Assembly: GCA_029891345.1 (NCBI GenBank) | Contig: CM057009.1 | Span: 228,523,120-228,587,119 of the forward strand | DNA length: 64,000 nt | Reading direction: 5' to 3' | From: Dryococelus australis | Lineage: Eukaryota; Arthropoda; Insecta; Phasmatodea; Phasmatidae | Part shown: one piece after another, positions 6,736 through 39,890 of the stretch | How positions within the stretch are numbered: position 1 is the first letter of the stretch | How the letters are laid out: each line of letters starts with the position of its first letter | The notes under the pieces: generated by a model | What the model was told of the DNA's origin: nothing | The model's input: only the letters and a program-made list of their open reading frames with translations | The model's database searches: none | Made by a program: the position numbers and the translations under genes

Positions 6736-6849
6736 TGGTTGCATCCAACCTTATTTCTTTCCTACTGAATGTGTGCACTTCCACTTATGCATTCCCTGTG
6801 GAGAGGAGACACTTTTCCAAGGTGCCCTGTCAGCCTCAGGTAAAGTATG

Positions 6850-8210: not shown

Positions 8211-8219
8211 AAAAATTAC

Positions 8220-19250: not shown

Positions 19251-19254
19251 AATA

Positions 19255-19583
19255 ACTGATTTAACATGATATTCATTATCAATACCAGTAATTTATAAAT
19301 AATTTGGTTCACTTGAGGATCTTAACAAATTATTTATCTTTGTTGAAGTTAAACCTGGGTTATCAACAGCCTCAATAATATGTTCATGTTGTGAGATTTC
19401 TACTCAAGATAACTGGAAATGAAAAAAAGTTGGCATAAACATCAATATTATCAAATTTTGCCTAACCTAAATTGCTCAAAAACATAAGCATCAATTACAT
19501 TATTGTAAACATTAAATTCCCCTTAGTTTGATCAGTTGGAGGAGAAGTTTGTCTTTCAAAACTCTCGATATTTTATAACACAT
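19255..19583 (-). pseudogene. Major capsid protein, N-terminal fragment (left arm)
   Basis: A methionine codon at 19,583 is followed by a frame-shifted FERQTSPPTDQTKGN and then EISQHEHIIEAVDNP and ITGIDNEYHVKSV. The same landmarks occur in the right arm (SYPPTDQTRGN from 37,680; a matching EIS..H block near 37,905). Similarity to the right-arm capsid stops at about 19,255, where envelope-like sequence takes over on the same strand. This is therefore the 5' end of the capsid gene, cut off by, or recombined with, another element. Confidence 0.6.
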
Positions 19584-19739
19584 TTATAATTTAAAAAATT
19601 AATATATAAAAAAATATTCATGAGAGGAAATTTTCAAGGTTGAATTACTCTTTGAAAAATTCAGAAATTTTAAAAAGAATCATAAAATATCATTAAGCAG
19701 ATTATGAAAAAAGAAGAAAAAGATCTACCTTTAATTCAC

Positions 19740-20600
19740 GAATTACGAAATATTGGTAAAAAGAGATAAAATAAGTGAAGAAAATCAAAATTTAAAAACA
19801 ACGCTAGTTACACTTGCAGCAAAAAATTTAGATTATCCACCTACTTCTGAAGAAACATCATTTGAAAGAGAATAATTGACCAAAGATAGGTCTGCAAATT
19901 TGGGTATAAATCCACTGAAAGAATAAACTATTAATCTTGGAAAATATATTTATGGAGATATTAATAACAATAAAAAAATACAGTTTACGAGGAGGACATG
20001 ATTTTTGTATTTGTGATACACAAGTAAATGCAGATGGTGATATTCTATTTGTCGAAGATAATGAATATGAATTAAGAGAAGAACTTTCCAATTTATAACA
20101 AAAAATAGCGCAGAAGAACCTGAAGTTAATTACAATAATAATGATCTTAACAATTACACATAAATTGTTTTATTAACCACTGATATAATTCAAAAATATA
20201 TTCATAATAAGAAAATGTATAATCCAAGTTCAAGTATTGGTTGGAAGTATAATAATATAATTAGACCAATTTATGAAAAATATACTAAAGATTCAAACTT
20301 AAGTTCAATACCAAACACTCCTAGATCTGAAGGAGGTATAAAAAATACAATAATTATCCAAAAGAATATGTCTGGATGGATGATGTTAGCAAATTGGATG
20401 ATAGATTATTAGTTATTCATGGTGAAGGAAATGCTGGTAATAACAATTATAACAATAAAAAGTGAGCATAATGAATATGTTGAACAATAAATTTTCTCAT
20501 TTTGTTATTTATAATCCAAAAGTAATTCCATATCTTATAAGAGATATTAATGTATTTCTTCATTATATTTGTAATTCTGAACATCATATATAAGGTATAA
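19740..20600 (+). pseudogene. Conserved Polinton/adintovirus gene of unknown role (left arm)
   Basis: The pieces follow each other over three frames: a charged helical N-terminal region (LRNIGKK, ISEENQNLK), INLGKYIYGD (about 19,930), DNEYELREELSNL (20,057-20,094), a 65-codon frame (20,215-20,412) with SSIGWKYNNIIRPIYEKYTK, then EYVWMDDVSKLDDRLLVIHG and NNKFSHFVIYNPKVIPYLIR. Proteins with this layout sit next to the PLA2 and capsid genes in related elements, and I know of no assigned function. The right arm carries the same gene at 36,520-37,260. It is disrupted by stops and frameshifts, with PLA2 immediately downstream. Confidence 0.6.
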
Positions 20601-20905
20601 TAAATTGGGCATTCAATAATTTACTTTTGCCTGAAATGCATTTTCCATGGTATAATTATTGTGACCCATATACAAAATTGAATAAAAGATTGGAAAGAGG
20701 CGACACAGGAATAAATAAATTATATGAAGCATGTAAATATCACAATATTGATTATAGAGATTATAAATATATTTAATCTAGGCATGAAGCTGATAAAATT
20801 TTACAAAAAGGAGCAAAAGGAATTATGTTAGATAAAAATACTCCAATCGGTGAAGTATTGCTTCTGCAACTGTTGCTTCAACTATGTTTAAAAAAAAATA
20901 GGATG
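20600..20905 (+). pseudogene. Phospholipase A2-like virion protein (left arm)
   Basis: PLA2-like domain related to that of parvovirus VP1, found in this group of elements and thought to breach endosomal membranes. Seen: LPEMHFPWYNYCDPYTKL (the calcium-loop region, about 20,635-20,690), then RGDTGINKLYEACKYHNIDY (about 20,698-20,757) and SRHEADKILQK. In the family the loop is Gly-rich and the active site is a His-Asp pair. Here the loop Gly positions read Asp and Tyr, and the pair reads His-Asn. One stop interrupts the frame near 20,776. The right-arm copy (36,211-36,500) keeps the His-Asp pair. Confidence 0.75.
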
Positions 20906-21119
20906 GGTTTTAAAATTGATTATTTACTTATATTGTTTACTTATAAATGAAGTTAACAAATATAACAGTTGATATACCCATTGGTCAAATAAAAGATTTG
21001 GGTATAGATAATTTTTAACAAAGGAACAACTTGAGAGAAAAAGTAAAATATTAAGTTAAGGCAAAGGATTCAAATTAATCTTGTCAATACCAACAATCAT
21101 AAATGTACTAAAATAAAAA

Positions 21120-21700
21120 TCTGGAAGCAGTTTATATCATGGAGTTTTTGTACGATTTTAATTTTAGTTTTAGCTGCACTCTGGCTTTAGCTGGTGGAGC
21201 TAGCTCAATTTACAAATCTGTTGATCAAACAAGAAAAAAATTAAAAAGAATTAAAAGAATAACAGAGACACAATTTAGAAATGGAAAATAAAGCAGGAAG
21301 TGGTTAAGTTGCAAAAAGGAGAGGGAGACCAAAAAAAATTAATATATCCCCATTATCTAATATTGATATTGAAAAATATGTAAAAAGTATTAAATATAAA
21401 AAATTTCGTTAGTGTTTATATTATTGATGAATTACCAAAAAGTATGCACAAATATGAATGTGCTTTGGTTAATTTTGACATTTCATTAAATCCTGATATT
21501 CATTGGGTGTGCTACTTTAAAGAAAATAACTATGTTTACTATTTTGATTTATTAGAAGGTATTATTCCTACTAATTCGACTACTAACTTCATAAATAGAA
21601 ATGTTTATTACAATCTCAATAGAATTCAGAGTTTTAATTAAGTTTTTAGTGGACATTTATTTTTAATTGTGTTATTCATTTTTTAAGAGAGGTTTTAAGT
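21120..21700 (+). pseudogene. pX-like segment plus adenain-like cysteine protease (left arm)
   Basis: The protease would mature virion proteins. An N-terminal membrane/basic segment (ALAGGASSIYKSVDQTRKK, RHNLEMENKAGSG, then basic KRRGRPKK) runs into LSNIDIEKYVKSIKYKKF and a 65-codon open frame (21,444-21,641) with HKYECALVNFDISLNP, IHWVCYF and YVYYFDLLEG. These carry the expected catalytic His (in HWVCYF) and acidic residue (in YYFD). The block where the catalytic Cys is expected (VFSGHLFLIVL, about 21,645) has Ser and Phe at the two usual Cys positions. At least two frame changes upstream of 21,444. Confidence 0.75.
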
Positions 21701-21730
21701 TTCATGATATAATATATTTGTTATTAAATA

Positions 21731-22060
21731 ATGGATGTATTTAAGGAATCATTAATCAAAATTTTAAATAAAAACTCTGACAGTAATTTTAATGAATTAA
21801 AAACATATGTAGATTCGAAATACTATGCAATTGTTTCTGCTTTACGAGATCAAATTAGTAAAGTTTTTGTCAATTCCAAAGCTTATGTTTCTGTTAAAGA
21901 TGTTAGAACTAATAATACAACTGACTCCATGGATGGAAAAGATGCAGTCAATAAAAGATTTTTTGATAAAGAAAAATCTGATAAATTACAAAATTTAAAC
22001 CAATCAGTTTTGAATTGTTGTGGAACACTTGTTAATACTAAAGTTGAAAACTGTAAATAA
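21731..22060 (+). CDS. Fibre-like coiled-coil protein (left arm)
   Basis: An uninterrupted 109-codon frame with its own ATG. The protein is hydrophilic and helical in character, with a repeat-like element (TYVDSKYYAIVSALRDQISK) matching the much longer repeat region of the right-arm gene, and a C-terminal KLQNLNQSVLNCCGTLV that recurs several times there. Its place directly after the protease matches the right arm. I infer a fibre/tail-type trimeric coiled coil; no receptor-binding domain is visible. It is one of the few unbroken frames of the element, though probably shortened relative to its homologue. Confidence 0.45.
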   Translation: MDVFKESLIKILNKNSDSNFNELKTYVDSKYYAIVSALRDQISKVFVNSKAYVSVKDVRTNNTTDSMDGKDAVNKRFFDKEKSDKLQNLNQSVLNCCGTLVNTKVENCK

Positions 22061-22345
22061 AAAGAGTATCATATAGTTTATTTACCTAAAAGTGGGATAC
22101 AAAAATAAGATTTTTCACTTATAAAATAATAAAATTTTCTGTGTTTTTTTATAGGTTGCACATGTTTATAACATAATTACAGTTAATCTCAATTTACCTG
22201 ATGATACTGTGACTGTTATCTATGATTAAAAATGGATTACACTAAGCCCTTTGAGGTTAATATAAGTGGCAATTTATCTTTTAAAATAAGCGAAAATAAA
22301 ATTGTTAGTTATGATAATGGATTGGTGACCACAATATGAATATTC
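22061..22345 (+). pseudogene. Small conserved gene, unknown function (left arm)
   Basis: VYNIITVNLNLPDD (about 22,166-22,207) is followed, after a stop and frame change, by an ATG-initiated 36-codon frame (22,231-22,339) with YTKPFEVNISGNLSFKISEN and ending in LVTTI. The right arm has the same string of motifs at 34,030-34,210. Conservation of both halves and of position suggests a real gene or the 3' end of the fibre gene. Confidence 0.4.
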
Positions 22346-22382
22346 ATAAAATATAATGATTGAATATTTTTTACTATTGAAA

Positions 22383-22490
22383 TGCAGAATACTTGGTGCT
22401 TGAAGTGTAAGAAGGTTACTAAAAAAATGATATGCAAAACTTTAATGTTCAATATTTAATTCAAATAAATCAACAATGTGCAATTTAAGA
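22383..22490 (+). pseudogene. Small zinc-ribbon protein (left arm)
   Basis: ATG followed by TWCLKCKKVTKKM, the first Cys pair of a short zinc-ribbon type (similar to DUF5679-like proteins that accompany integrase in these elements). Frameshifts follow, and only one Cys of the second pair (STMCNLRE) is visible. The right-arm counterpart is at 33,870-33,996. Nucleic-acid binding is inferred. Confidence 0.5.
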
Positions 22491-23160
22491 GAAGTCATAA
22501 TAAATTATTTATATAAACCTGCATGAAATTTTTTTCCAAAAACAAAAGTAATTTTGTATGGTATTGATGATTTATGGCAAATTGATCTTGTTGAGTTGGA
22601 TATTGGTAACAATGGGCCCTAATTTTATAATAAAATACTTAAACAACTTATGCAAAAATGTAACATGAATCATTATTCTACATTCACTTAAATTAAAGCC
22701 AGTATTGCAAAGATATATAATCGCACAATGAAGCACAAAATGTGAAAGAAATATGCTTTGCATGCATTTACAAATGGGTAAATATATTAAAGGATTTAGT
22801 TAATGAATACAATACCAAACATGGAACCATTAGTATGAAACCAATTGAAGTCAATAAAAAATGAAAAAAAAATCATATTTAACATATATGATTACTGAAT
22901 CAAAATACAATGTTGGTGATAATGTCCACATAAGCAAAACGAAACAAATTTTTGAAAAGAGTTATACAGCTTATTGGATAACAGAATTATTTACCATTTC
23001 GAGTTTTTAAATCATAATGTACCAATTTACAAACTGAAATATGTCATGGAAGAAAAAATAAAGGGTAATTTTTATGAATATGAAATTATGCAAACCATCT
23101 ATCCAAATGAACATTTGCATAGAAATTCTTAAAAATAAAAGGTGATAAAATTAGGTAAAA
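22490..23160 (+). pseudogene. Retroviral-type integrase, internally deleted (left arm)
   Basis: Integrase of the Polinton type (rve/DDE core). The start reads YLYKPA then FPKTKVILYGIDDLWQIDLVEL (about 22,506-22,600), containing the usual first catalytic Asp. After ELD the sequence jumps to NNGP.FYNKILKQLMQKCN, skipping some 50-60 residues present in relatives, so the second Asp region is at best partial. Next are SIAKIYNRTMKHKM, LVNEYNTKHGTISMKPIEVN (about 22,797-22,856) and a C-terminal chromodomain-like part (YNVGDNVHISKTKQIFEKSY). The catalytic Glu position (SIVE in relatives) reads Lys here. Multiple stops. Confidence 0.75.
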
Positions 23161-23279
23161 TGACTAGTTTTTGATAACACGCATAACACTTGGATTAATA
23201 AAACAGATGATTTGAGAATTGAAATATTTTTCTTAAGGGTGTAACAGCTTGCACACCCTTAATTATATGTAATTATAAT

Positions 23280-24745
23280 TTTTCAATTGTTATGAGTAAT
23301 TGGTTTTTACTATCCTTCCAATTTAATAATAGTTTTGTTTCATTCCAAGATTTTTTGTATTACTGGTAATGCCTCACTCTGATCTGCCTAATAATTCTTT
23401 ACATGATATTTAAATTTGTTTTCAGCAGTGAAGAAATATAATACTTTAAAAAGTTTTGTTTGTGGATTATATAATTATTCATCGTTTCTTTAATACACTG
23501 GTTCTAGAATAACTGCTTCTAAAGTATATATTTCTGCCAGATGATTTTTAGTTAATTAATTAATGCAAACAAATGGCTCATTTATGTTTTTAATTGTCAT
23601 TTCTACAATTTCAAGTAAATAAGTTTAATGTAAAACATATATTACCATGTTTTTTAATAATAAAAAACATTCAATTTCTTATGAAATAACTTTTTTATTT
23701 TGCATACATCATGAACTTTCTCATGAAAACAAATATAAAAAATTATCTTGTTCATTATGAGAAGAATTGAAATTCACATTTCTAGCATTTAAGTATCTGT
23801 TGTAGAAACTTTAAAATTGTTAATTGAAGTATATCGATCAGATGTTACAATATATATATATAACCATTAGTTGTTTTCTGTTTAACTTTGTCTATAAAAA
23901 TTTTCATATGCATGTTAAAATGTTCTATTTTTTATTTTATAAGGCAAATTGTACATATTTAAGTTTTTCTTCTTTGGCTTGAATAGGAAGTTGTTCAGAT
24001 TTATATTTTATAATTTTTATTTGCTGGCCTTTCAACTCAGTGTTCTTTTATATGTAATTTATAAGAGCCACATTTTTTAGTTGTTGGAAGAACTTTAGTA
24101 GCCCATTTCTAAAATGATTTAGGTAATTTTGTCTTCACCATCTAAGTATAGATCTTGGATTAATAAAACAGATTTTTGTGAATTTAAATATTTTAAATAA
24201 AGAAATAGAAAATTGATATTACATTTTTTTTAGAATTTTCATTTTGTTCGTTATCTGAAAGATTTTTAGTTAAGTTAAATAAAGAAAGGCAGTTTTTTCT
24301 TTATTTCAGTACCATTATCACTTGGTTTTTTTCTAAGAATTATCTTACTATAATGTTTTTGTTATGAAAAGTAGCATAGCATTCAATTATTATTTCTATA
24401 ATTTCTTCATTATTCAATTCATTTAAAAGTACTTTATTCGCTGCTTCTTCATTAACAATTTTTTAGTTATTTTATTTCTTGAATTATTTTTAATGTTGTG
24501 ATATTTTGCTGAGGTTACTGAATATTATTAAGACCAACCTGTCAATTTTGGACTTGTTTAATGTTTCTATTTGGCACTTATAATCATCTGTAACATGTTT
24601 ATAAGCTTTATGTATTTGTTTGTATTCAAATATTTCTATAGCTTATTCAGCTCTAAATCATGGTTCATTGTTATTGTCTAATACAGCAGTAATATTTTTA
24701 TAATTAAGAATAAAATTATTTACATAAAAAATTTAGTTCATTCTA
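23280..24745 (-). pseudogene. bro: BRO-N plus T5orf172 (GIY-YIG) protein, left arm only
   Basis: On the minus strand a BRO-N-type DNA-binding domain begins near 24,680 (LDNNNEP.FRAE.AIEIFEYKQIHKAY), continues to about 24,520, and is resumed near 24,130 by SF.KWATKVLPTTKKCGSYKL, the usual end of the domain. A Lys/Gln-rich linker (QQIKIIKYKSEQLPIQAKEE) leads to NGYIYI (about 23,865) and, after frameshifts, TSDRYTSINNFKV and NARNVNFNSSHN. This is the T5orf172/MUG113 form of the GIY-YIG nuclease fold. A further tail extends to about 23,300 (TIKNINEPFVCIN, IYTLEAVILEPVY). BRO proteins are accessory regulators in insect DNA viruses. No counterpart lies in the right arm between integrase and ATPase. 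Many stops and frameshifts. Confidence 0.6.
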
Positions 24746-25010
24746 TATTATCTTCAAATTTTACTTTATAATTACACAGTGGCTTGGTCATTTTGTAAGT
24801 AGTCATAATTTATATACAAAAAAATATTTAATAGGTTGTAAGAAGGCTAATCATTTCAAATGTAACAAGGTTTAACATAGATTAAATGTGTTAAATGTTC
24901 GTTTATCATTCGTTCATTTATCATTTGTTCGTCATTTGTTCATTCAACACACACTTTACTTATAGTGAGGTTAATTTTGAAAAAAATACATAATGTTTAC
25001 GGGCTGCTTC
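24745..25010. repeat. AT-rich stretch with short TTCGTCATTTG-like repeats
   Basis: Around 24,896-24,950 the string CATTTGTTCGTTTATCATTCG-like recurs three or four times with small changes. It marks the edge between the viral arm and a block of non-viral composition. Confidence 0.45.
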
Positions 25011-25925
25011 ACCATGTTAGGGACCTCCAGGTTTAGGGGTTATTACACCTTGCCAGTGACCTGTTATATATTTTACCATCCTTGATATTGACACCAGCAA
25101 AACTCAATTTTGAGAATGCCCGACATCACCACCAAATGGCCTCTCCTTTTAAATTTTTGTTGTGAAATTGGAAGTTTTTATAATTTTTTTAATTCTTCTA
25201 CCCCCTCTCATATTGACATTGGCACCTTACACCATATGAGACACCCCAGCTATAGATATGTAATATTACATTTGTGTTATAGAGAGCATTTTTACTGGGG
25301 CTTCGGGGGTAGTAATTAAGAGCATCAACTGCTCATATTTTATATGAGCATGAGCAAGGTTTTTGGCTCAAACTTTGAAGAATTTGATGATAATCAAATA
25401 GTGTAAATATGGGTGCCTCATATTCATATTATTAAATTATCTGCTCATACCAGGGATCGAACCCATTACCTTCGCATTTGAAATCAAACACCTTGTAAAT
25501 GAGCCATGTTGACAGGATGATTGCAGAATTAAGTGGCAAGCTACAGCTAGTTTAAAGCTTCTTTAACACAAGTCACTCACTAAGTGTGTCACAACTACTG
25601 TGCCGAGCTAGCCCAAGGTAGACAAGTGAAGTAATTTTCAGCTCGAGACCAGCTTGAGAGTGTCTTGGCAAGTGTGTCGCAACTGTGTAGTCCATAGCAC
25701 TGTGAAGGTCGATAAGTTATTATCGAGATTCGTGCCAAGTTTTCACTCTGAGGCATGATGACGGCAGCACTATTCGATAAACTTTCATCCTGTTGCCCTT
25801 TAGAGGCCAGCACAGTAAGAGAATATTATATATGTCTCTACTAGGTTGCAGCATGTTTGCTGAAGGAGATAAAATGATTCTCACACAATAAGTGCAACTT
25901 TTCAGTTACACTTCTTATTGAGATG
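25010..25925. mobile_element. Non-viral insertion with tRNA-derived SINE remnant
   Basis: This block is less AT-rich than the element around it and has no viral coding signal. It splits the left arm between the BRO gene and the ATPase, and nothing equivalent lies in the right arm. On the minus strand GGTTCGATCCC (25,453-25,463 complement) is a good tRNA B box, preceded by A-box-like sequence (TGGCTCATTTACAAGGTG, about 25,490-25,507), the arrangement of a tRNA-derived SINE. Exact ends and target duplication were not resolved. Confidence 0.5.
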
Positions 25926-25929
25926 AAGT

Positions 25930-26468
25930 AACTTTTTATCTAAAGTGATAAAACCATAGTCTTTGCCCCAGAATTTCGAAGAAATCTCTTTAAATTTCTC
26001 ATGTCATATCTCCACCATCAAAACCATTATATGTGTTTCAAATTGGTTTCATCTTGTCTAAATATATACAAAAAATTGTACTATCTCTTACTAATTGCTT
26101 GGGCACTTTTGAATAAGTCTGTGCCAAATAAAATACATCAACATTTTAATGTATTCCCATAGTAAAGTACTTGTGGATAACATATTGATTTTCAAAGTTG
26201 ACACAATCAAAAATTACTATAGATATATTGTTTTACACATTGGTCTAGTGGAATCATTTCGCCATTGCTATTTAAAAAATAAGCCATATTTTTATTAAAC
26301 TTGTTGGATACTACATCTAAGTAATTTTGTAAATGAATATATTTTGATTGATTAAAACTTTTTGAGTAAACATACAATTTATAGAAATTTAACCAGCAAT
26401 TATCATTATAAAAAAATCATCATATTGCTTTCTCTACATCCGCTGTGTCCAACTATAACTGCTCTCAT
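25930..26468 (-). pseudogene. A32-type packaging ATPase (left arm)
   Basis: FtsK/HerA-type ATPase that would translocate genome DNA into capsids. The start codon at 26,468 opens MRAVIVGHSGCRESNMM, a Walker A region in which the Gly-Lys expected before Ser reads Arg-Glu. Then come WLNFYKLYVYSKSFNQSKY (about 26,390-26,330) and NSNGEMIPLDQC. Walker B is not clearly visible. The C-terminal part has FLYIFRQDETNLKHI (about 26,070-26,025), a signature of this family. Stops and frameshifts are frequent. The right-arm copy at 32,174 keeps an intact Walker A. Confidence 0.7.
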
Positions 26469-26679
26469 ATTGTCAAGCAAAAGGTCGCCATTATTTTATT
26501 TTAAGCATTTTTTTCGTAAATTAAAACACCAATACCTCCATCAAATTTCTCATTAATTACTATAATTTTTTTACTAAATGGATAATATAGTGTTAAAGTT
26601 GACAAATAATACTTTTATACTAAAAAAGCAGCTTCACTATGATATAATTTATCTACATAAATCAATTGAATGAGTCAGT

Positions 26680-27270
26680 TTTCTTATGGAATTTGTGGCC
26701 CCTAATAAAGACTATAACACTAAAATAACAGTTGAAAACTTCAGTGATAAGAATGAAGTTATAACTGTTCCTAGAGGACAGTAAAATGTCAAGTCTTTAA
26801 AAGAAGCTCTAGATTCAAACGATAAATTTTCTGCAACTAACATTGAATTGACAGAAGCAATGTTAAAAGAAGAATATCAGTTAAAATAAAGTTAGATATT
26901 AAATTTGACAATCGACTATGTGATATTCTTGGTTCTGAAAGAAATGTGCTTAGTAAAAGAGACAAAGTTGTTATAGGCAGTAAATGACCTAATTTTGGAC
27001 CATTTAAAACAATAAATGTTCACTGTAATTTGGCATATGCTACGTTTATAAAATGTTATGGGACTAGTCACTTATTTAAATGCTAGTTTTCTACTAAAAA
27101 CTATGCTTGGTTTTAGAGATTATTGTCCAAGAAACAGCATATACAATTGTTTCGAAAATAAATAATGAGTAGTTTAATTATATTGTTTTGGATTAGGGAT
27201 AAAAATGGTAAACTGATTGATTTTGATGGTTCTGATATCCATTAAGTTTTCGAAATTTAAGACATTTAAA
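26680..27270 (+). pseudogene. Minor-capsid (penton-like) protein (left arm)
   Basis: The blocks are in order: KITVENFSDKNEVITVPRGQ (about 26,716-26,780), NVKSLKEALDSNDKFSATNI, KLDIKFDNRLCDILG (about 26,895-26,940), FGPFKTINVHCNLAYATFIK (about 26,995-27,055) and, near the end, IRDKNGKLIDFDGSD (27,196-27,236). The same sequence of blocks recurs in opposite orientation at 30,957-31,610. In related elements the gene with the final RD..G.LIDF.G pattern is a virion structural protein often called penton/minor capsid; that role is inferred. Frameshifts and stops interrupt it. Confidence 0.55.
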
Positions 27271-27324
27271 TCCAAATTTCTGTAATTATAGTGGTCGGCA
27301 CACAACCCACAGAATGATTTGTCA

Positions 27325-27332
27325 ATCTGTAA

Positions 27333-27363
<31 letters not shown>

Positions 27364-27480
27364 GTGCATTATATAAATAAATATATATACATGTATATAT
27401 GCATAATTGATATATAAAAATATAAAATTATATTTTTATATCCTTTTGCTAGTATATCTATAATATCATGTTTTTCATTC
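27325..27480. repeat. (TA)n microsatellite and AT-rich spacer
   Basis: An uninterrupted TA tract at about 27,337-27,363 is followed by further ATATAT-rich sequence. It separates the 3' ends of the minor-capsid and PolB genes in the left arm; the right arm has no equivalent tract. Confidence 0.85.
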
Positions 27481-29222: not shown

Positions 29223-30900
29223 AATAGCACGTAGAGATCCTTTTCAATACATAACAATATCAAGTGCTTGTAGGTTTGAATTGGAAAATATTACTCCTGT
29301 ACTTAAAGAACAGAAAAAAGAAATTGCTAGTAAAGTTGTTAACTGGTGGAGAAGTAACTATTTGTGTAGACAAAGTTAACGGTTATGACGATAAAACTAA
29401 AACTGTATATCAATATAACAGTTGTTTTTTTGTCACAGTTGTCTCGATTGTTATTCTTCAGACACAATAAATAAATACAACAGTCGAACTACAATTTCAA
29501 GACGAAATGGTTACAAAGTAAGTGAAATGTGGACTTGCTAATGGAAAAATCGTTTTTCTACAAAAAAGAATGTAGAAAAAACTATAAATGTCATAGAACC
29601 ATTACAACCTCGAGATGCATTTTTTGGAAGCAGTACAAATCCTTCAAAACCGAAGTTTCAGGGAAAAAATTAACTCATATAGATATATGTGGGATGTTAC
29701 CAACAGTAATGTTTTGTGATTATTAACTCATTGGGCAGCCAATTAAAATATTTAAACCTAAAAATTATGATACAAATAGGTTTGGATTAATCAAATCTAA
29801 AGTTTTAACACAACGAAATATATATCATGCAGTGCTCCCAATTAAGAAAGAAAAACTACCGTTTACTTTATGTTTAAAATATGTTGATGAGCAAAAAGGA
29901 TGATGTAATCGCAATGATGAAGAAAGAGCATTAAATGTAATATGGACAAAAGAATTAAATGTAGCTATCGAAAAAGGTTATAAAATATTTCAAATTCATG
30001 AAGTTTGGAATTTCAGCCAAAGAAGTATTAATGTGTTTAGAAATAACATAAAAACATTTATGAAATTAAAATTGCAAAATAGTACTTGAGAGGATATTAT
30101 AAATCTAAAGAAGAGTATATTAGTGTTATTAAAAAAGAACTAGATATCGATTTGTCCATTGAAAATATTTCTAAAAAATCCCGGGAAACATGCTGTTACC
30201 AAAATCTATTTAAATTCCCTTTGGGGCAAGTGTTGTCAAATACAAAATTTGTCAAATACACAGTTGGTTTATAATGCTCAACAATGATCTTACATTTTAT
30301 TGAATGATGAGAGGTGACTAATGTGGTTCACATTAATGACAAAATAATTTATGTGTCATGGTACCACAACAATAATTATGTAGAAGATAATAATGTAGCA
30401 AATATAATTGTAGCAACATTCACAACTTCAAATACAAGATTAAAATTATATGAAATGCTCAATAAATTTAAAAAAATTAGTATATTATAATACAGATAGT
30501 GTAGTTTTCATTGACAATGGTAAAAATACAGTTAAAATAGGTTGCATGCATGGTGAATGGACAGATGGATTTGGAAGAAATTATTATAATATCGAACGGA
30601 TTAGTACTGGTCCAAAATGTTACGGTTATGAAACTTTTTTGGATAAACAAGTTACAAAAATTAAAGGATTCACTTTAAATTATGAAAATGATTTGAAGTT
30701 GAATATGAAATCGATGGATCAATTAGTACAAAAAATTAAGAAATATGTGGTTATAAATACATGATTACAAGAGACAAGAAAACAAAAAATCTGGTGAATA
30801 AGTTTATGGCAGAAGAATTTAAGTTTGGCTATGGCAAACGTATGAATTTGAATGAAAATATGATATTATATATACGTTACCATTTGGATATTAAACAAAT
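29205..30900 (+). pseudogene. Protein-primed DNA polymerase B, 3' part (right arm)
   Basis: Mirror copy of the left-arm gene. The first recognisable residues are NLFLEIARRDPFQYITISSA (29,212-29,270), a few residues downstream of where the left-arm copy begins. Later blocks are VNGYDDKTKTVYQYNS (about 29,370), GKKLTHIDICGMLPTVMFCD (palm motif A region, about 29,663-29,722), AIEKGYKIFQIHEVWNF and, after frameshifts, YYNTDSVVFIDNGKNTVKIG (30,482-30,541). In the last block the motif C Asp-Thr-Asp reads Asn-Thr-Asp. A 104-codon frame (30,450-30,764) continues to SMDQLVQKIKKYVV. The N-terminal half of the gene is absent. Confidence 0.85.
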
Positions 30901-30956
30901 TGTCCTATATTTATGTATAATTTGTTTTATATATGTGTAATTTTAGGTATAATTCA

Positions 30957-31610
30957 TTATATGTATAATTTTATACTTTCTAATATGTCTTTAATTTCCA
31001 AAACAATGACATTAACAGCACCATCAAAATCAATAACATTTCCATTTTTGTCTCCAATTACCAAAATAAAATTATTTAAATGTTCGTTATTAAATCTATA
31101 AAATATTTGATATGAAGATTTACAAAAAAATATAATCTCTGAATCGAAACATTGTTTTTGGTTGTAAACTGGTGATTTTAAATGTTCTAAATGATTATAT
31201 TCATCGCATTTTATGAACATACAATATGCCAAGTTACAGAGAACATTGATTTTTTATTGGTCCAATATTAGGTAATTTAGTACCTATAACAATTTTTTTT
31301 CAACAATCATATTGCTCTCAAAACCAACAATATTATATATTCGTTCATCAAATTTAATATCTAACTTTCTTTTAACCAGTATGTCTGATCTTAGTCAGTG
31401 TTATTAGTAGAGAATGGTTCAATTGAACTTATAGTTACCTTGAATGATTCAATAGTGTATTGTCCTCTAGGTATATTTATACATATATTATTATCAATCA
31501 ATATTATTGTATTGTTGTTTATATTACATGTTATATTTTGTACGAAAAATAATCAATGCAATCGATTTGTCTTTATGAATGATATCATAATGAAGTTTCT
31601 TATTTAGTAT
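30957..31610 (-). pseudogene. Minor-capsid (penton-like) protein (right arm)
   Basis: Counterpart of the gene at 26,680-27,270. On the minus strand: INIPRGQYTIESFKV (about 31,475-31,430), KLDIKFDERIYNIVG (about 31,370-31,325), a 91-codon open frame (30,957-31,232) with FYRFNNEHLNNFI and GDKNGNVIDFDGAVNVIVLE. Blocks are in the same order as in the left arm. Stops and frame changes lie between 31,232 and 31,420. A virion role is inferred from related elements. Confidence 0.55.
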
Positions 31611-31639
31611 GGGAGTATTATTTGTTAACTTAAATACTT

Positions 31640-32110
31640 TATTTTCTATTTAAACAATTATCTTATTAAATGGGAAAAAAAATTTTATTAAATAAAAAAA
31701 ATCATCTTATTAAAAGAAAAATTATCTCTTTAAATGAAAAAGTATCTTATAAGATACAAATGTTATCTTATTAAATAACACAAAATATTTCATAAAATAT
31801 AAAAATCATCTTATTAAATGAAAAAATTATCTCTTTAAATGAAAAAAGTATCCTATAAGATACAAACGTTATCATATAACATAACACAAAATTTTATATC
31901 AATTAAAAAAATTGTCCTATTAAATGAAATAAATGTTACTATGAAAAAATTTATTTTATTAAATGAAGAAATTATCTTACTAAATGAAAAAAAATATCTT
32001 ATTAAATGAAAAAAATTAACTTCTTAAATGAAAAATTATCTTATTTTATACTAAAAACTCTCTTTATTAAGTAAAGAAAATTTTTCAAATGAAAAAAGTT
32101 GATTGAGTTG
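31640..32110. repeat. AT-rich tandem repeat array with palindromes (right arm only)
   Basis: The string ATCTTATTAAATGAAAAA recurs about ten times at irregular 20-40 bp spacing. A higher-order duplication pairs about 31,700-31,795 with 31,803-31,900. Each half holds a palindrome: GTATCTTATAAGATAC (31,742-31,757, perfect) and a one-mismatch version (31,848-31,863). The equivalent gap of the left arm (between ATPase and minor capsid, about 26,470-26,680) lacks the array. Confidence 0.8.
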
Positions 32111-32173
32111 TTGGTGTTTAGGTTTCTGAAGAAAAACCTAGAAATTAAAAATTGAGATATATTGCCTGACAGT

Positions 32174-32745
32174 ATGAGGACCATAGTATTGGGCCCAAGT
32201 AGCTGTGGAAAAACAAATTTGATTTAAAATTTGTAAGGATTATAAAATTTTAATAAATTGTATGTTTGCTCAAAAAGTTTAAATCAACCTAAATATATTC
32301 TGTTACAAAATTATATTGATAAGTTATCCAAAATCTAAAAGTTAAAGAAAAATTGGATACTTTTTTAATAATATTGGTTAAATGATTCCCTTAGCTCAGT
32401 GTGAAAAGGATTCTCTTGCTATATTTGACAATGTTATTGTAGACAAACAAGATATACTACATTATTATTTCACTAGAGGAAGACGTAATATTAAGATGTA
32501 TTTTATTTAGCACAATATTTTTCAAAAATTCTTAAGAAATTGATAAAAGATAGTACAATTTTTTTTGTATATTTAAAAAAGTTGATACTAACTTAAATCA
32601 TATTTCTTATGATTTTGTTGGTGGAGATATGTCTTATGAAAAATTTAAGGAAATATGTGCAAATAGTTGCAATTAAGAATATGGTTTTATAACGTTAGAT
32701 TTGAGTAGAAAAAGTAAAGATGGGAATTATAGAAATTAAAAAAAA
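32174..32745 (+). pseudogene. A32-type packaging ATPase (right arm)
   Basis: The start codon opens MRTIVLGPSSCGKTNLI, an intact Walker A (GPSSCGKT). It is followed, with frameshifts, by NKLYVCSKSLNQPKYILLQN (about 32,252-32,310), DVFYLAQYFSKILKKLIKD (about 32,490-32,550), a stretch resembling the DET/DTNL..I block, then GGDMSYEKFKEIC (about 32,622-32,660). The last blocks are characteristic of the Polinton/adintovirus ATPase. The Walker B region (about 32,430) reads IFDNVIVDKQD-like residues. It is opposite in orientation to the flanking integrase and minor-capsid genes, as in the left arm. Pseudogene by frameshifts. Confidence 0.75.
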
Positions 32746-33055
32746 AATTTATAAATTAAAATTTTTTTTTGCAAATCAAAGACTTTACTATTTTTAAAAA
32801 ATATTAGCAAAATGCTCTTTCTATTTTAATATTAGATGAATGTATATAAATAATGTTAAAATGAATGACGACTCTATGCTATGAACATTAAAACAAACAC
32901 TAAACATATTTTATGAATACTTAAAACAATGTTACATTTGAAATAAATATTAACAGAAAAATATTAAAACTAAATAATATTAAAATTTACAAAACATCCG
33001 TTATATTCTTCAAAAGGTTACGAGAATCATCAAAACCTAACCATATAAAAAATAT
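32745..33055. other. AT-rich spacer between ATPase and integrase (right arm)
   Basis: About 300 bp of AT-rich sequence with no frame. In the left arm the corresponding interval is about 2.8 kb and holds the BRO-T5orf172 gene and a SINE-bearing insertion. Confidence 0.6.
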
Positions 33056-33059
33056 TTTA

Positions 33060-33835
33060 TCACGTTTCGTTTTTAAGACTTATTCAACCCAATATTCATC
33101 GGGATGGTTAGTTTTCATTATTTCATATTCATAAACACTACCATTTTTATTTCTTCTTCATATATATATACATATATAGGTAGGTACATCTTAATTTAAA
33201 ACATAAATAATAGTAAATCGTTATGTTGTCCATTTAGAAGTAATTTCAGAAAGTCATTTAATTTTGCTAACGTGGACAACATCACCAACTTTGTATTTCG
33301 GTTTAGTAAACAAATGTTTGACATAAATTATTTTCACTTTTATTATTAACTTCAATTGGTTTCATACCGATAGGTCTATGTTTTATATTGTTATATTCTT
33401 CCCTAAATCTTATAATATATTTATCCATTTATAATTGTCATTCAAAACATCTATCTTCCACATTAATTTTTCATTGTGCGATTGAATTTGTCTACAATAC
33501 TACCTTTTAGTTCACTGAATGTAGAATAATGATTGATGTTATATTTTTGCATAAAATCTTCAAATATTTTATTATAAAATTAAGAACCATTATCAGTTTG
33601 TATATTAGGTTTTTTTTTATCAATATATATTCTAAACCATTTAGTTAATTTTTAGCTGTTTTATCTTTTACAGGCACAGCAAATGCATATTTTAAGAAAT
33701 ACATCAATAATTGTCATAATATACTGTTATATTACCAGTATCCATCTCAAGAACATCAATTAGCCATCCACATGAAATTACTTTTCTTCTTGGAAAATTC
33801 TTTTTTGCTGGTTTATATAATTAATTTTTTATTCC
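33060..33835 (-). pseudogene. Retroviral-type integrase (right arm)
   Basis: The minus-strand reading, with frameshifts, gives LYKPAKKNFPRRKVISC (about 33,820-33,770), FLKYAFAVPVKDKTAKN (about 33,695-33,645), NIQTDNGS.FYNKIFE (about 33,608-33,563, second catalytic Asp intact), YNINHYSTFSELKGSIVDKF (Glu of the catalytic triad reads Asp at about 33,490), EEYNNIKHRPIGMKPIEVNN (about 33,405-33,350) and a C-terminal part near 33,300-33,100. The segment deleted in the left arm is present here, so the two arms were damaged independently. Confidence 0.75.
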
Positions 33836-33864
33836 TTATCTTACATTGGGAAACATTTTTTTTT

Positions 33865-33996
33865 AATGTTGATTTATTAGAATTACGCATTGAACATGTA
33901 CTTTTCAGAACTAATAGTCTATTTTTCGTATCTTAATTTTTTATATTTTAATTTTTTAGTAACTTTCTTACACTGCAAGCACTAAGTGTTCTTCAT
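33865..33996 (-). pseudogene. Small zinc-ribbon protein (right arm)
   Basis: ATG at 33,996, then CLQCKKVTKKLKYKKLRYEK and, after a frame change, LVLKSTCSMRNSNKSTLKK. The first Cys pair is kept. The second keeps one Cys, and the other reads Arg. It sits just upstream of integrase on the same strand, as in the left arm. Confidence 0.55.
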
Positions 33997-34024
33997 TTAA
34001 TAGTAAAAAATATAGCTATTGTTT

Positions 34025-34210
34025 ACATTTCACTAATATTCCTATTGTAGTAATCAATCTTTCATTATATTCAGATATTAATTTTTTAAAATATGAAAAC
34101 CAAACTTTAATCTCTGTTAACATCAAAAGGCTTACTGTATTCTATTTATTTAGCTTCCTTAATATCAGTCCAATTATCATGAGGTAAATTGAAATTACCA
34201 GTTATTATTT
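34025..34210 (-). pseudogene. Small conserved gene, unknown function (right arm)
   Basis: DVYKIITGNFNLPHDNW, then after a stop EYSKPFDVNRD and a tail with ISEYNERLITTI. It matches the left-arm gene at 22,061-22,345 block for block. Function unknown. Confidence 0.4.
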
Positions 34211-34289
34211 TATAAACATCCATCAAAATAGAAAAGAAAATTAAAATATATATGCGAAAAATATTAGTTTTTTTTTAATTCCACTTTGC

Positions 34290-35430
34290 AGGTATATAAA
34301 ATATATGAGATATTTATGCACTGCATTTTTCAGCTGTTGAGTTAACATTTGTATCACAATAAATCAAAACTGATTTGTTTAAACTTTGTAACTTATCAGC
34401 TATTTCTTTATGAAAAACATATTTGCATTTTCCGTTTTCGTTTTAACAAGTATATCACAATAACTCAGAACTGATTGATTCAAATTTTGTAAATTATTAG
34501 TTATTCCTTATTCGAAAACTTCATTGTTTTTTTTCGAATTAACTCGCGTATTAGAATAATTCAAAACTCATTGATGTAAATTTTGCAATTTAACAGCAAT
34601 GTATTTATTAAAAAGTATTTTATTGATCGTGTCTTTTCCATCTATAGAATCTGCCATATTATCAATTATACGATTTTCAATAGAAACATATTCTTTTGTA
34701 TAAACTAAAACATTACTTATTTCATCTTGTAAAGTAGAAACAATTTTATTGTATTTTGAATCTACATTTTTTTATCAGTAATAATAATATTGTATTTAGT
34801 ATGTATGACTTTTTACAAATCAGAAACAATATTATCGAATTTTGAATTTACATGGTTTCTTTAAACATAAGTTGAAACAATAGTATCGAATCTTGAATTT
34901 ACATCATTTTTTAAAGCATAAGCTGAAACAACAGTATCGAATCTTGAATTTTCATGTGTCTTTTCTTCTTTTTTAGCATAAGCAGAATCAATAAATGAAG
35001 TAATAGATAAAATAGTTTTCTCTCATTAATATACATCTATTTTTAAAGCATAATCTGAAACACTACTATTGTAACTGGAATCTACATCATAAGCAATAGT
35101 TTTGTATCTTGAATTTACATATTTTTTTAATTAGAAGCAATAGTTGTATGTCTTGAATTTAAATCTTTTTTTTAAATTAGAGGCAACAGATTTGTATCTT
35201 GAATATACATATTTTTTTTTTTTTATCAGAAGCAATAGTTTTGTATCTTAAATCTACATCTTTTTTCAAAGAATAAACATTACTTTTGTATGTATAATCT
35301 ACATCTATTTTTAAAGCAAAGCATTAGTATCAAAATTTTTTAATTTCAAAATTTTATTAATGGTTTACGAAATATATCCGTAACTTAATAACGAATAATG
35401 TTTGTTTCTTTTTAATCCGAAGTCTCTCGA
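34290..35430 (-). pseudogene. Fibre-like coiled-coil repeat protein (right arm)
   Basis: The minus strand encodes, in changing frames, many copies of a short unit built around DSRYKTxASDxKK (seen as DLRYKTIASDKKKYV, YSRYKSVASNLKK, and others) with a nucleotide period near 55-60 bp between about 34,700 and 35,330. Downstream (34,300-34,560) are two or three copies of a block resembling LNQSVLxYCDxxV. I infer a repetitive fibre/coiled-coil virion protein. The left-arm counterpart is a 109-codon unbroken frame with only one or two units, so repeat number differs greatly between arms. Poly-T runs cause many frame changes. Confidence 0.5.
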
Positions 35431-35444
35431 AAAAAGATATAAAA

Positions 35445-35995
35445 CAATTAAACATAGGTGTCCCCAGAAAACTGAATTGAAATTCTGAATTCGATTATCA
35501 TTTTAATAAACATTTCTCTTTTTGAAGTAATTAAAAAATTTACTGGGAATATTACCTCCAAATGAATCAAAATAGTAAACATAATTATTTTCATTAAAAT
35601 AACAATCACAGTGAGTACCTGGATTTGTTGAAATGTCAAAATTAACCACATTACATTAATTTTTGAGCATTCTTTTTGATAATTCATCAATCATATAAAC
35701 ATTTCTGAAATATTTGATTTTCAGTATTTTTACATATTTTCCAATATCAACATTATATAATGGAAATAAACTCAATTTATTTACCTGCCTTTTTTTTGTA
35801 ACAAAACCCCTTCCTGATTTATTTTCCATTGCTAAATTATGGTATTTTGTTTTTCTATTCCTATTTTTATTTTTTTTAGTTTGGACAACAGAATTATAAA
35901 AAACATAAGCTCCTCCAGCTAAAGCTCCAAGTGCAGCTAAAACTGTAGTAACAAATGGTAAAAAACCATAATGATGTAAACCATTTCCAGATTTT
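35445..35995 (-). pseudogene. pX-like segment fused to adenain-like protease (right arm)
   Basis: One minus-strand frame is open for about 110 codons from 35,995. It has a hydrophobic Gly/Ala segment (HHYGFLPFVTTVLAALGALA, likely membrane-active), a basic linker (TKKNKNRNRKTKYHNLAMEN), then PLYNVDIGKYVKILKIKYF and YMIDELSKRMLKN before a stop at about 35,663. The protease core follows in the same frame (NVVNFDISTNPGTH) and then YVYYFDSFGG and SVFWGHLC. The catalytic His and Asp regions are kept. In the Cys block the first usual Cys reads Trp and the second is present. Related elements also fuse these two parts, which supports one polyprotein. Confidence 0.75.
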
Positions 35996-36004
35996 TCTTT
36001 TAGG

Positions 36005-36205
36005 AATTTTTTTATTATTTATTTTGGCAATTTTAGTTAGAAAACTTTTCCTTCTTTCAAATTTCTATTTTTCTCTCAATTTAGTCTTTTGCTAAACGTT
36101 TATATATAACCAAATATATTAGTTAATGAATATGTATATCGAAAGTTATATTTATTATCTTCATTTATAAACAAAACATATTATTAACTGATAAATATTA
36201 TTAAT
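36005..36205. other. AT-rich spacer between pX/protease and PLA2
   Basis: No conserved residues were recognised. It matches the position of a similar spacer in the left arm (20,905-21,120). Confidence 0.5.
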
Positions 36206-36210
36206 CCAAC

Positions 36211-36500
36211 CTATTTTTTTGTAAACATAGTTGTAGCAACAGATGCAGAAGCAATTGTTTCACCAAATTGAGTATTTTTATCTAACGTAATTTCTGTTGC
36301 TTCTTTTTGTAGAATTTCGTCAGCTCCATGTCTAGATTCTAAATCTTTATGAGCTCTATAAGCAATATCATGGTATTTGCAAGCTTCATCTAATTTATTT
36401 ATTCCATTGTCTCCTTTTCCTAACTTTGGTTTAATTTTGTAAGTGGTACACAATAATTATAGCCTGCAAATGCATTTCTGGTAAATTAAAATTTTTAAAG
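36211..36500 (-). pseudogene. Phospholipase A2-like virion protein (right arm)
   Basis: An 80-codon open frame (36,211-36,453) contains GKGDNGINKLDEACKYHDIA, including the His-Asp catalytic pair, then SRHGADEILQK and TIASASVATTMFTKK at the end. The upstream calcium-loop region (LPEMH, then GYNYCVPLTKLNQ, about 36,500-36,430) is split from it by small frameshifts, and the loop Gly positions are not kept. It is better preserved than the left-arm copy. Its place between the unknown gene and pX/protease is the same in both arms. Confidence 0.8.
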
Positions 36501-36519
36501 TCCAAATTATTATTCGTTG

Positions 36520-37260
36520 ACCATGATGTTCTGAATTCCAAAATTAATGTGGTATTACCTTTAAAACTTTTATAATATATGGAATAATTTTTCGATTATT
36601 AACAACAAATTCAGAAAACTTATTGTCCATCATATGCATTATACTTACTTTTTCATTGTAATAATTGTTATTTCCAACATTTTCTTCAACATGAATAACG
36701 AATAACCTAATAATCAATTTTCTAACATAGTCCATCCAAACATATTCTTCTGGTAAAATATTGTATTTTTTTATATCCAGTTCTAGGAGTTCTTTGAGAA
36801 ATCATTCTTTCAGATGTATTTGGCACTGATCTTGAATTCAAATTTTTTATATATTTATGATAATGTTATCATTTTTATTATATTTGTGTATTTCCAACTT
36901 TTATTCGATATTACTTTTGTTTTCGGATTACATTCTTGATATACAGCATTTGGGTCTATAATAATATCATTGTAATTTTCAGAGTCATTATTAGCGTATT
37001 TATCAAATTTCTTTCTTTTCTTTACAATTTAGAATATACTTCCGTTAATTTATATTCTTTATCATTAGCAAATATTTTATCATCATCTATCGTTACATGC
37101 TCATCTGCTCGTAAGTCATAATTTGCGTCGCTAACATTTATTCTTTTGGAAATTTCTTTTCGGAGATATATAATACAATCTTTTATGTGCACAGTTCCCG
37201 TTTGTTTTTCCAAATTCGGAGATCTATGTTCTCGAAATAATTATCTTTCTAATTATGTTT
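36520..37260 (-). pseudogene. Conserved Polinton/adintovirus gene of unknown role (right arm)
   Basis: The pieces in order on the minus strand: a 63-codon frame (37,022-37,213) ending DDKIFANDKEYKLTEVYSKL, then frame-shifted residues, and a 63-codon frame (36,544-36,735) starting MDYVRKLIIRLFVIHVEENV and running through NNYYNEKVSIMHMMDNKFSE. Each block has its partner in the left-arm gene at 19,740-20,600. No function is known to me; a virion or assembly role is likely from context only. Confidence 0.55.
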
Positions 37261-37477
37261 CTTCTTGTGTTGGTGGATAATCTAAATTTTTGCTGCTACT
37301 GGAACTAACATCGTTATTAAATTTTTATTTTTTTCATTTACGTGTTCTACTTTTTTTTACCAATATTTCTTCGTTCATCAATTAAAGGTAGTTCTTTCTT
37401 CTTATTTTTCATACTCTGCTTCGTGATTCTTTTTATAATTTCTATATCTTGCAATGTGCCATTTAACTCGAGAAAAC

Positions 37478-37491
37478 ACACACACACACAC

Positions 37492-37576
<85 letters not shown>
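37478..37576. repeat. (CA)n/(TA)n compound microsatellite
   Basis: A CA run (about 37,479-37,495) is followed by about 38 TA dinucleotides (37,500-37,576). Frames on both strands (YIYIYI) are artefacts. A shorter TA tract at 37,661-37,675 lies on the other side of the small inverted repeat described below. Confidence 0.95.
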
Positions 37577-37577
<1 letters not shown>

Positions 37578-37711
37578 ATTTCCTCTAGTCTGATCTATTG
37601 GAGGATAAGATTGTCTTTCAAATCTACCAATACCATTGTAACTCATTTATAAGAAAAAATTATATATATATATATATCTTATCCTCCAACAGATCAGACT
37701 AGGGGAAATTC
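37575..37711. repeat. Inverted repeat at the capsid gene start
   Basis: ATTTCCTCTAGTCTGATC...GGATAAG at 37,577-37,609 is nearly the reverse complement of CTTATCC...GATCAGACTAGG...AAAT at 37,677-37,708 (about 32 bp arms, about 67 bp loop). On the minus strand the left arm encodes RFERQSYPPIDQTRGN after an ATG at 37,646. On the plus strand the right arm encodes SYPPTDQTRGN. The 5' end of the capsid gene is therefore present in both orientations. Confidence 0.75.
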
Positions 37712-38690
37712 AAATATTTACAATTATGGAATTTTATTTGGTATTCCTATAGGTGATAGCTTTTATTTTACAAATGGCACTTATCTTTTTGAAGAATATA
37801 GATTACTAAAAAGAGATAAAGTTGGATATGAGTAAAATGTAAAAAATTTAGATAATATTGGTATTTGTTCTAACATTCTTCCTATTCAGTTTTCTAAAGT
37901 TTAAATCTCAAAACATGCAGTATTATTGAAGCTATTGATAAACCAGCAATAACATAAACAACAATGAATATTTTATTAAGATTACCAAGCCAACAGAATT
38001 ATTTAGACTACTGGTGTTGATATTAAATATCGAGTAAAATCTGTTCATTGCGATAAAACAAATGAAGCAACTTATCGACTGAGATATGTTTGGTTTTATT
38101 TGAGATATGTATGAAATTTACTGGAAAGGTGGTTATAATTATTATTTTTTTCGTTATTCATCTGGTAACAATTATTTATTAAGATAATGTAGTTTAAATA
38201 ATTGATGCCGATCCAGGTAAAATTGTTACTCAAAATATGTGGCCTATTGTTGATTACGAATCTGACACAGCCATTGTAATTTAAGAAAAAACATACAAAA
38301 ATCCTAAATCGCATATTAGATTTAATTACTGGCAATTTTTAGAAAAAGAAGTTCCTGTTGGATCAACTGCTTTTAACTTTGATATAAGACATCAACTAAA
38401 TAATTTACAATTTGACATTCCTGATTTTGTAATTGTAGGTTTTCAAACTAATGGAAAGAAATCGTCCTGAACAGTATGTGCACGCTTCTATGTTTGATCA
38501 CCGTAATGTAAGAAATATTTATGTTAAAAATGGAAGAAATGAAATTTTTCCAAAAGAAAATTGGGTTCTAGATATTAAAAATGGCCTTTGTAATAAAAGG
38601 TTTCTTCCTTATAATGATTTTAGGAATTCAAAATCAAAACTGTATATTATATACAGAAGTAATGAACTTATTGTAAACCAAATGTAAACT
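37678..38690 (+). pseudogene. Major capsid protein (double-jelly-roll type) (right arm)
   Basis: Hexon-like capsid protein. It starts within SYPPTDQTRGN and continues with GILFGIPIGDSFYFTNGTYL (about 37,733-37,792), a block aligning with the left-arm fragment near 37,905, then TTGVDIKYRVKSVHCDKTNE and EATYRLRYVWF. The C-terminal jelly roll is clearest: FDIRHQLNNLQFDIPDFVIV GFQTN in one frame (38,378-38,452) and, shifted, a 78-codon frame (38,451-38,687) with SMFDHRNVRNIYVKNGRNEI and NWVLDIKNG. The FDH..VRN pattern is typical of capsid C-termini in this group. The first methionine lies on the other strand because of the local inversion. Confidence 0.7.
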
Positions 38691-38960
38691 TTCATGTGAT
38701 ATCAAATATTAATATTTTTTTTGACGAAGGCGATTATATGTATTGATTGTATTTATAGAAAAACAATCGTAGATAAAGAAAAACAAACATAAAATAAGTG
38801 TTTATTTTAATAAAGCTATTGAAGCAGGAATAATTTGTAATGCTGTTTTAATTAGCTAAAGGAATCTAACTTCTGATTATTTTAAAGAAAGATTTACTGA
38901 AGATATAAAAAAAATTTTAAATAGTAAATGGAGTAACCAAATTGTTTAGATAGTTTTAAA
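38690..38960 (+). pseudogene. Fragment downstream of the capsid gene, unknown
   Basis: Within AT-rich sequence one frame reads KISVYFNKAIEAGIICNAVL and, after a stop, SDYFKERFTEDIKKILNSKW (about 38,792-38,930). The spacing and residue use look coding. It may be the end of the capsid reading or a separate gene. Not identified. Confidence 0.3.
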
Positions 38961-38964
38961 CAAA

Positions 38965-39890
38965 GTTTAAGATGTATAGTGAAATGGTTTAATATTTTAA
39001 AACTTTTGTATATTTTTAGATGTTTAGTTGATTTGTTTTATCGAATAAAAATAATTTTCTTAAATCTAAATGAATTTTTATCATACATATTATTCTTTTC
39101 AGCTTAAATATTCTTGATTTTGGCTTAAAATGCTTGATTTAAATTACATACTTGGCTTAAATTTGCTTACTTTGTCTAAAATTAAGACTATTTAATTTTT
39201 TTTTAATTATGAAGGTAACCTCGCGTAAAATTAAAAGCGATTTTTCATGCCACATTTCCAAGCTTGAAAAACCAAATATTTACATCGAATATTAAGGGAA
39301 AAACCTTGAAAATTAAGGAAAAATCTTAAAAATTAAGGAAAATATGCGTTTTATCGACCATATATTCTTATATTGAAAGAGCTGAAAATATACGAAAAAC
39401 CTTGTTTTAGAGGCTTTTTTAAAACATTTTTGGAGCAGTTTTGAGGCTAATTTTAGGCTTCAAAAAACATGTAAGAACAGGGTAAAATCCTTGAAAAGAC
39501 CTTGAAAATTAAGGAAATTTAAGGCAAAAATTAAATTGTCTTCAACCTACAAATATACTACTGTGGTCTCGCGTCCAGCAGTTAACCGTATATTTTCAGT
39601 TTGTGTCGAACACCTGCTGTGGCCGGAGCACTGGCAAGAGCGAGTAGACCTCTCAGACATGTTGATTTTTTGTTCATATTAAACTACATTTCACATTCAT
39701 ATAGAACATTCGATTCGTACAGTTATTAAATGGAAAATAAGAACTTCCGCCTCGACGAAACCTGGTAACGTACATATTGTCCAAAAATAGCACAATTGCC
39801 GAAATCTCTGGAAAACAAGAAACACACTAAATTACAACCACAATACACCACAAGTGTATATTGTCCCTAAAACCCACCTTAAGGGGGATA
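38965..39890. other. AT-rich stretch with GAAAATTAAGGAAAA motifs
   Basis: From 39,230 to 39,530 the strings CTTGAAAATTAAGGAAA and AATTAAGGAAAAT recur five or six times irregularly. No coding signal. This is where a terminal inverted repeat of the element would be expected; none was recognised. Confidence 0.4.

Follow-up and report, generated by a model that had tools for sequence, protein, structure and literature searches.

A head-to-head Maverick/Polinton locus in Dryococelus australis is probably a fusion of two insertions from different subfamilies

Does a mirror image in a chromosome record a viral genome that folded back on itself, or can it arise from two separate elements? This question is raised by a locus in the 3.4 Gb genome of Dryococelus australis, which we studied in a window of 64,000 nucleotides (the whole stretch of DNA analysed; assembly GCA_029891345.1, contig CM057009.1, positions 228,523,120 to 228,587,119). 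A sequence-only reading had described the locus as a Polinton/adintovirus-like element spanning window positions 19255 to 38960, duplicated head to head around a point inside the polymerase gene PolB, and had suggested a fold-back or template-switch product or an ancestral palindromic form. Our analysis indicates that the two arms are incomplete copies from different subfamilies, here called A and B, of one Maverick/Polinton family. The explanation that we favour, with a probability of about 0.6, is that two insertions of different lineages were fused after integration through a microhomology join. The parts on which the argument turns are as follows:

19254 to 29207, plus strand: left arm, a decayed Maverick/Polinton copy of subfamily A, with structural genes on the plus strand and PolB on the minus strand
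29207 to 39562, minus strand: right arm, an oppositely oriented, decayed subfamily B copy, with PolB on the plus strand, the PLA2-to-integrase genes on the minus strand and the capsid gene on the plus strand
29207 to 29211, no strand: junction, the 5-bp microhomology GAAAT, common to the non-coding strand of subfamily A and the coding strand of subfamily B

The proposed mirror arrangement was confirmed by aligning the window with its own reverse complement, the check that the sequence-only reading had put forward. The stretch 19254-28904 pairs inverted, piecewise and collinearly, with 38045-29340 at a DNA identity of 68-82%. The longer alignments join 19639-21823 with 37467-35288 (72.4%, E 0.0), 22611-23231 with 33591-32973 (73.7%) and 27411-28661 with 30919-29653 (72.5%, E 0.0), and a smaller seed additionally picked up 19254-19459 with 38045-37843 (74.9%) and 28827-28904 with 29418-29340 (78.5%). 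Such a collinear mirror series is far beyond chance. A recent or perfect palindrome is excluded, since the long alignments between the arms are only about 72% identical. Both arms are interrupted by stop codons, and only two open reading frames of at least 100 amino acids (109 and 104, start codon required) lie within them. In 10 ungapped blocks picked by hand out of 56, with frames taken from open reading frames or from the best-scoring translation, mismatches between the arms were nearly evenly spread over the three codon positions (132/120/157, p 0.073). Most of the change between the arms therefore looks like mostly neutral decay after insertion, and the slight excess at third positions is as expected if the lineages had split before insertion.

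The assignment to a Polinton/Maverick-type element was borne out by element ends, target duplication and protein profiles. A 28-base terminus motif was found at 607 places in the genome (301 forward, 306 reverse; at most 3 mismatches; control 0). In a copy designated C10 (94013881-94031175) terminal inverted repeats (TIRs) lie at both ends, 17.3 kb apart; this copy starts with AGTAGT and ends with ACTACC, its right-end TIR has 4 mismatches to the motif, and 5,000 of its bases (94014106-94019105) read N. It is flanked on both sides by AGTAAA, a 6-bp target duplication seen in the one copy that was checked. Because this copy has two TIRs and AGTAAA on both sides, a monomer of 17.3 kb appears to be the normal form of the family. 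The C3 copy (C3 95797539-95812261, without N) runs in a single orientation over about 14.7 kb and has only one, poor TIR. Two sister copies yielded pieces that match the PolB profile PF03175 above its cut-off (2.7e-7 and 9.2e-8), and the following domain pieces and gene remnants were recognised in the window:

20594 to 20773, plus strand: PLA2 domain piece of the left arm (PF08398, 1.2e-5, above cut-off)
36214 to 36456, minus strand: PLA2 domain piece of the right arm (PF08398, 7.7e-8, above cut-off)
27411 to 29205, minus strand: PolB remnant of the left arm (PF03175 at 0.0079 in one window piece, below cut-off)
29207 to 30920, plus strand: PolB remnant of the right arm, aligned with the PolB of sister copies
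37682 to 39050, plus strand, approximate range: putative major capsid gene remnant of the right arm, named from sequence motifs with no profile match
39535 to 39562, minus strand: TIR at the right arm's end, matching the 28-base motif with 3 mismatches and ending in ACTACT

Apart from the left-arm piece listed, the other three of the four window PolB pieces gave no match to PF03175, and none was seen in the right-arm pieces tried. In the C3 copy two slightly overlapping pieces, read in different frames, match consecutive parts of the integrase core profile PF00665, each below cut-off (0.0048 and 0.067). No convincing profile match was obtained for capsid, minor capsid, ATPase or protease in the pieces tried, and we presume these names from sequence motifs. 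Among the gene names proposed for the arms, PLA2 (in both arms) and PolB thus have profile matches, integrase has sub-threshold matches in a sister copy, and the others are putative assignments from sequence motifs. A DNA polymerase match for PolB pieces was also found in PHROGs, together with an endonuclease match in one of them; a search of PDB gave weak PLA2 matches only. In IMG/VR one viral contig shared a segment of 41%, and a second query found no viral relative. The family resembles the vertebrate Mavericks described in PMC8097293 in its end motif, (AGT)2//(ACT)2 in vertebrates, its 6-bp target duplication, its unit near 17 kb and the position of PolB on the strand opposite most other genes. 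It departs from them in PLA2, which is present in the window arms and is not in the vertebrate core gene list given in that paper.

The two arms were placed by phylogeny in different subfamilies. In a PolB tree of 28 rows (the two arms and 26 other copies) the left arm fell in clade A (support 98/98 and 100/100) and the right arm in clade B (100/99), and forcing the arms to be sisters cost 266 log units (p-AU, from the approximately unbiased test, 5.7e-39). Thirty rows had been extracted, of which L005 and L006 were dropped as too short; L003, L004, L007 and L008 were left out because longer loci already represented those copies. A tree of the structural region from PLA2 to protease, with 11 rows, gave the same A/B split and a p-AU of 2.6e-63 for the arms as sisters. 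For the latter, eight stretches were fetched beside subfamily B-like PolB copies at the expected distance; the structural region was in the expected order in five, L046, L049 and L050 had no match, and a short C10 piece was dropped. Tree rows are the best matches to one or other arm and give no estimate of subfamily frequencies. PolB identity was 0.74 between the arms, 0.827 between the left arm and subfamily A (10 rows), 0.811 between the right arm and subfamily B (11 rows) and 0.787 on average between A and B, with five rows outside both groups left out, so that the arms (74%) are less alike than the average A-B pair (79%). Both arms were nearer to their own-subfamily mean than to each other in all eight 200-column PolB stretches with data. 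Gene conversion between the arms was also considered and rejected for PolB, where none of the eight stretches shows the two arms more alike than each is to the mean of its subfamily.

These trees bear directly on the fold-back of one genome, in which the arms would have been identical at birth and have decayed since. The mirror order, a junction within one gene and the near-uniform mismatches over codon positions would suit such an origin. Both trees reject it, the PolB arms are less alike than a mean A-B pair, and no stretch is nearer to the other arm than to its own subfamily. Single-genome fold-back is ruled out on this evidence, unless another lineage subsequently took the place of an entire arm, and we consider it barely credible. 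That part of the earlier template-switch proposal falls, whereas a switch between two different co-replicating genomes is possible. The ancestral palindromic form finds no support: the arms lie in different subfamilies, the C10 copy is a single unit, and the search for other copies with the same junction returned the junction motif at only one place in the genome (at most 3 mismatches, control 0) and a match across the join at none of the 39 other scored places from the junction query. A second junction copy of the same age could exceed the 3-mismatch limit of the motif search.

The junction itself was found inside PolB at about 29.2 kb, as had been proposed. Read on the coding strand in the alignment, the left arm tracks clade A until ATTTC and the right arm tracks clade B from TTT.GAAATTTG, and the two breakpoints are 67 bp apart, whether measured in a clade A copy or in a clade B copy. 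GAAAT sits in an imperfect short inverted repeat, ATTTCAAAA / TTTAGAAAT (8/9), whose halves are likewise separated by 67 bp on the PolB coding strand. Beside the join lies a further feature:

29103 to 29198, no strand: 48-bp tandem duplication in left-arm PolB, units differing at 2 of 48 sites

This duplication lies in what we take to be the PolB exonuclease motif region, and stops a few bases short of the join. Two differences in 48 are too few for the age given by end branches of 0.08-0.12 (P 0.023-0.001; 0.006 at 0.10). Provided that duplication and join arose together, such a young age points to a late event.

Based on these observations, it is reasonable to propose that two members of a high-copy family, one of subfamily A and one of subfamily B, inserted in opposite directions, polymerase end towards polymerase end. 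A later chromosomal rearrangement, either a deletion or an inversion, would have joined both copies within PolB at 5 bp that they have in common. The N-terminal end of each polymerase gene and the TIR beyond it would have been lost on both sides, along with any sequence in between. We place the join after insertion by inference, and pairing of the inverted, then more similar copies may have helped to bring the breakpoints close. Nesting of the left copy within the right copy was tried as another arrangement and rejected, since no match to the lost PolB N-terminal part was found outside the arms when the whole window was compared with 11 stretches of four copies.

Further rearranged copies exist in the family, which counts in favour of a fusion of two insertions. 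In the copy C4:255994205-256009191 (L018, L019) the PolB block is inverted in place. In C1:48066672-48076394 (L037, L053) it is the structural block, lying between PolB and the capsid gene, that is inverted, and this copy also ends abruptly within PolB. Block inversion was thus seen in two of the four copies covered over both modules (C3, C10, C4 and C1), a count that is not a rate, as C10 is partly unseen and C1 was chosen because it already looked rearranged. The breakpoints of both inversions look intergenic, and a search for inverted repeats at the matching C3 positions gave only weak, mostly AT-rich matches. These two copies with an inverted gene block mark a difference from vertebrate Mavericks, of which PMC8097293 states that module orientation varies.

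Several observations weigh against a fusion of two insertions. Breakpoints as close as 67 bp are seldom expected from unguided joining of random copies. Few head-to-head neighbours are expected by chance, 0.03-0.25 within 10 kb and 0.3-2.5 within 100 kb, by a crude formula with 300-828 copies, and among 75 other placed PolB copies there was a single pair within 200 kb, on the same strand. The end branches of the arms are alike (0.12/0.12 in PolB, 0.098/0.13 in the structural region), as is also expected from a single joint insertion, and in one of the eight PolB stretches (columns 1400-1600) the right arm is slightly nearer to A than to B (0.846 vs 0.833). As for the tandem duplication, its tie to the join is an assumption, and at a branch of 0.05 two differences in 48 are not unusual (P 0.16).

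Some of these points are better explained by a heterodimer, in which a growing subfamily A strand switched, at short inverted PolB homology, to the opposite strand of a subfamily B genome that was replicating alongside; the resulting head-to-head molecule, bounded on both sides by a capsid-side TIR, would then have integrated as a unit. It accounts better than the fusion of two insertions for the near-symmetric breakpoints; the inverted repeat with GAAAT, its halves 67 bp apart, is what a snap-back or strand switch would need; and the capsid-side TIR kept on the right arm and the similar end branches agree with it. The absence of a second junction copy from the motif search and the 39 scored places argues against it, as does the young duplication at the join, which suggests a later event; the left outer end, with any TIR and target duplication, is lost at 19254, and this reading has no positive mark such as a joint target duplication. 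We regard this origin as possible, though unlikely.

Unguided end joining of two family members, with accidental symmetry, would need no pairing at all. First-look candidates numbered 689 for the junction-spanning query and 828 for the right-arm PolB (40 of each were scored), and with hundreds of candidate copies and other rearranged ones such a coincidence is conceivable; having both breakpoints within 67 bp in family coordinates makes it improbable. An assembler could also have joined two unlinked copies of so abundant a family. Most assembly misjoins are caused by long near-identical overlap. Here the join spans 5 bp, and the inverted sequences that it links resemble each other at about 74%. 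No N bases occur in the window, which places the junction outside any scaffold gap; we hold an artefact to be very improbable.

The two arms are unequally preserved. The right arm continues beyond the proposed end at 38960 to its TIR. The left arm has lost its outer TIR and most of its capsid gene, of which a stub of about 300 bp is left because the arm ends at 19254; on the polymerase side it lacks the N-terminal part of PolB and the TIR. From the right arm the PolB N-terminal part and the PolB-side TIR are lost and the capsid-side TIR is kept, followed by GTGGTC, a possible target duplication whose partner is lost. One block of the left arm has no partner in the right arm:

23231 to 25938, no strand: 2.7 kb partnerless block of the left arm, from the self-comparison and sister copies

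Opposite this block the right arm holds about 270 bp (32700-32973). The C3, C4 and C10 copies largely keep the block, and both the right arm and the C1 copy lack it. Perhaps it carried a mobile endonuclease gene. A sister open reading frame in the block region (L016:2229-2660, minus strand) has a weak, below cut-off match to T5orf172, which is GIY-YIG-like.

A few side observations were made. In the right arm an inverted repeat (37578-37733) lies between the capsid gene start and its divergent neighbour, with similar peptides at both starts (PPTDQTRGN / PPIDQTRGN). Adjoining the left arm at 19254, open frames of 152 and 93 amino acids lie at 18376-19292 on the minus strand; the larger has a weak, below cut-off match only, and they are possibly envelope-like. 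A PolB piece of a sister copy (L038:2550-3095, minus strand) matches phrog_13076, an endonuclease family, at 9.3e-5 beside its polymerase match, as if an endonuclease domain lay inside PolB. In the C3:69927 copy (L006:659-1388) a minisatellite with a 60-bp period has expanded inside PolB, with open frames through the repeat. Outside the element, window positions 6838-8217 hold diverged tandem repeats arrayed at intervals of about 118 bp.

Unlike a standard Maverick/Polinton, the window holds two incomplete copies of different subfamilies, head to head. Adintoviruses have a similar gene set (PLA2-like domain, PolB, integrase and a capsid-type gene), whereas the copies described here have decayed and lie in chromosomes. 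Head-to-head palindromic joining in protein-primed linear viruses occurs in symmetric recombinants of adenovirus and in other snap-back defective genomes; these repeat one genome, whereas the arms here come from two lineages. No inverted or palindromic Polinton pair was found among the literature titles and abstract openings listed, and in PMC12721341 the one head-to-head passage concerns gene order. Maverick virions had not been observed at the time of PMC8097293, as its abstract states.

The locus shows that what looks in raw sequence like a conspicuous mirror image can consist of two different lineages of a single high-copy element. Setting the arms beside sister copies from their own genome distinguishes such a pair from a true fold-back. 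It is doubtful, but conceivable, that two Maverick lineages in one cell made the heterodimer by a strand switch at the PolB inverted repeat and that the chimera entered the germline, which would make the locus a relic of co-infection and of a template switch by an integrating virus with protein-primed replication. If the heterodimer were true, the locus would directly document strand switching between Mavericks that replicate together.

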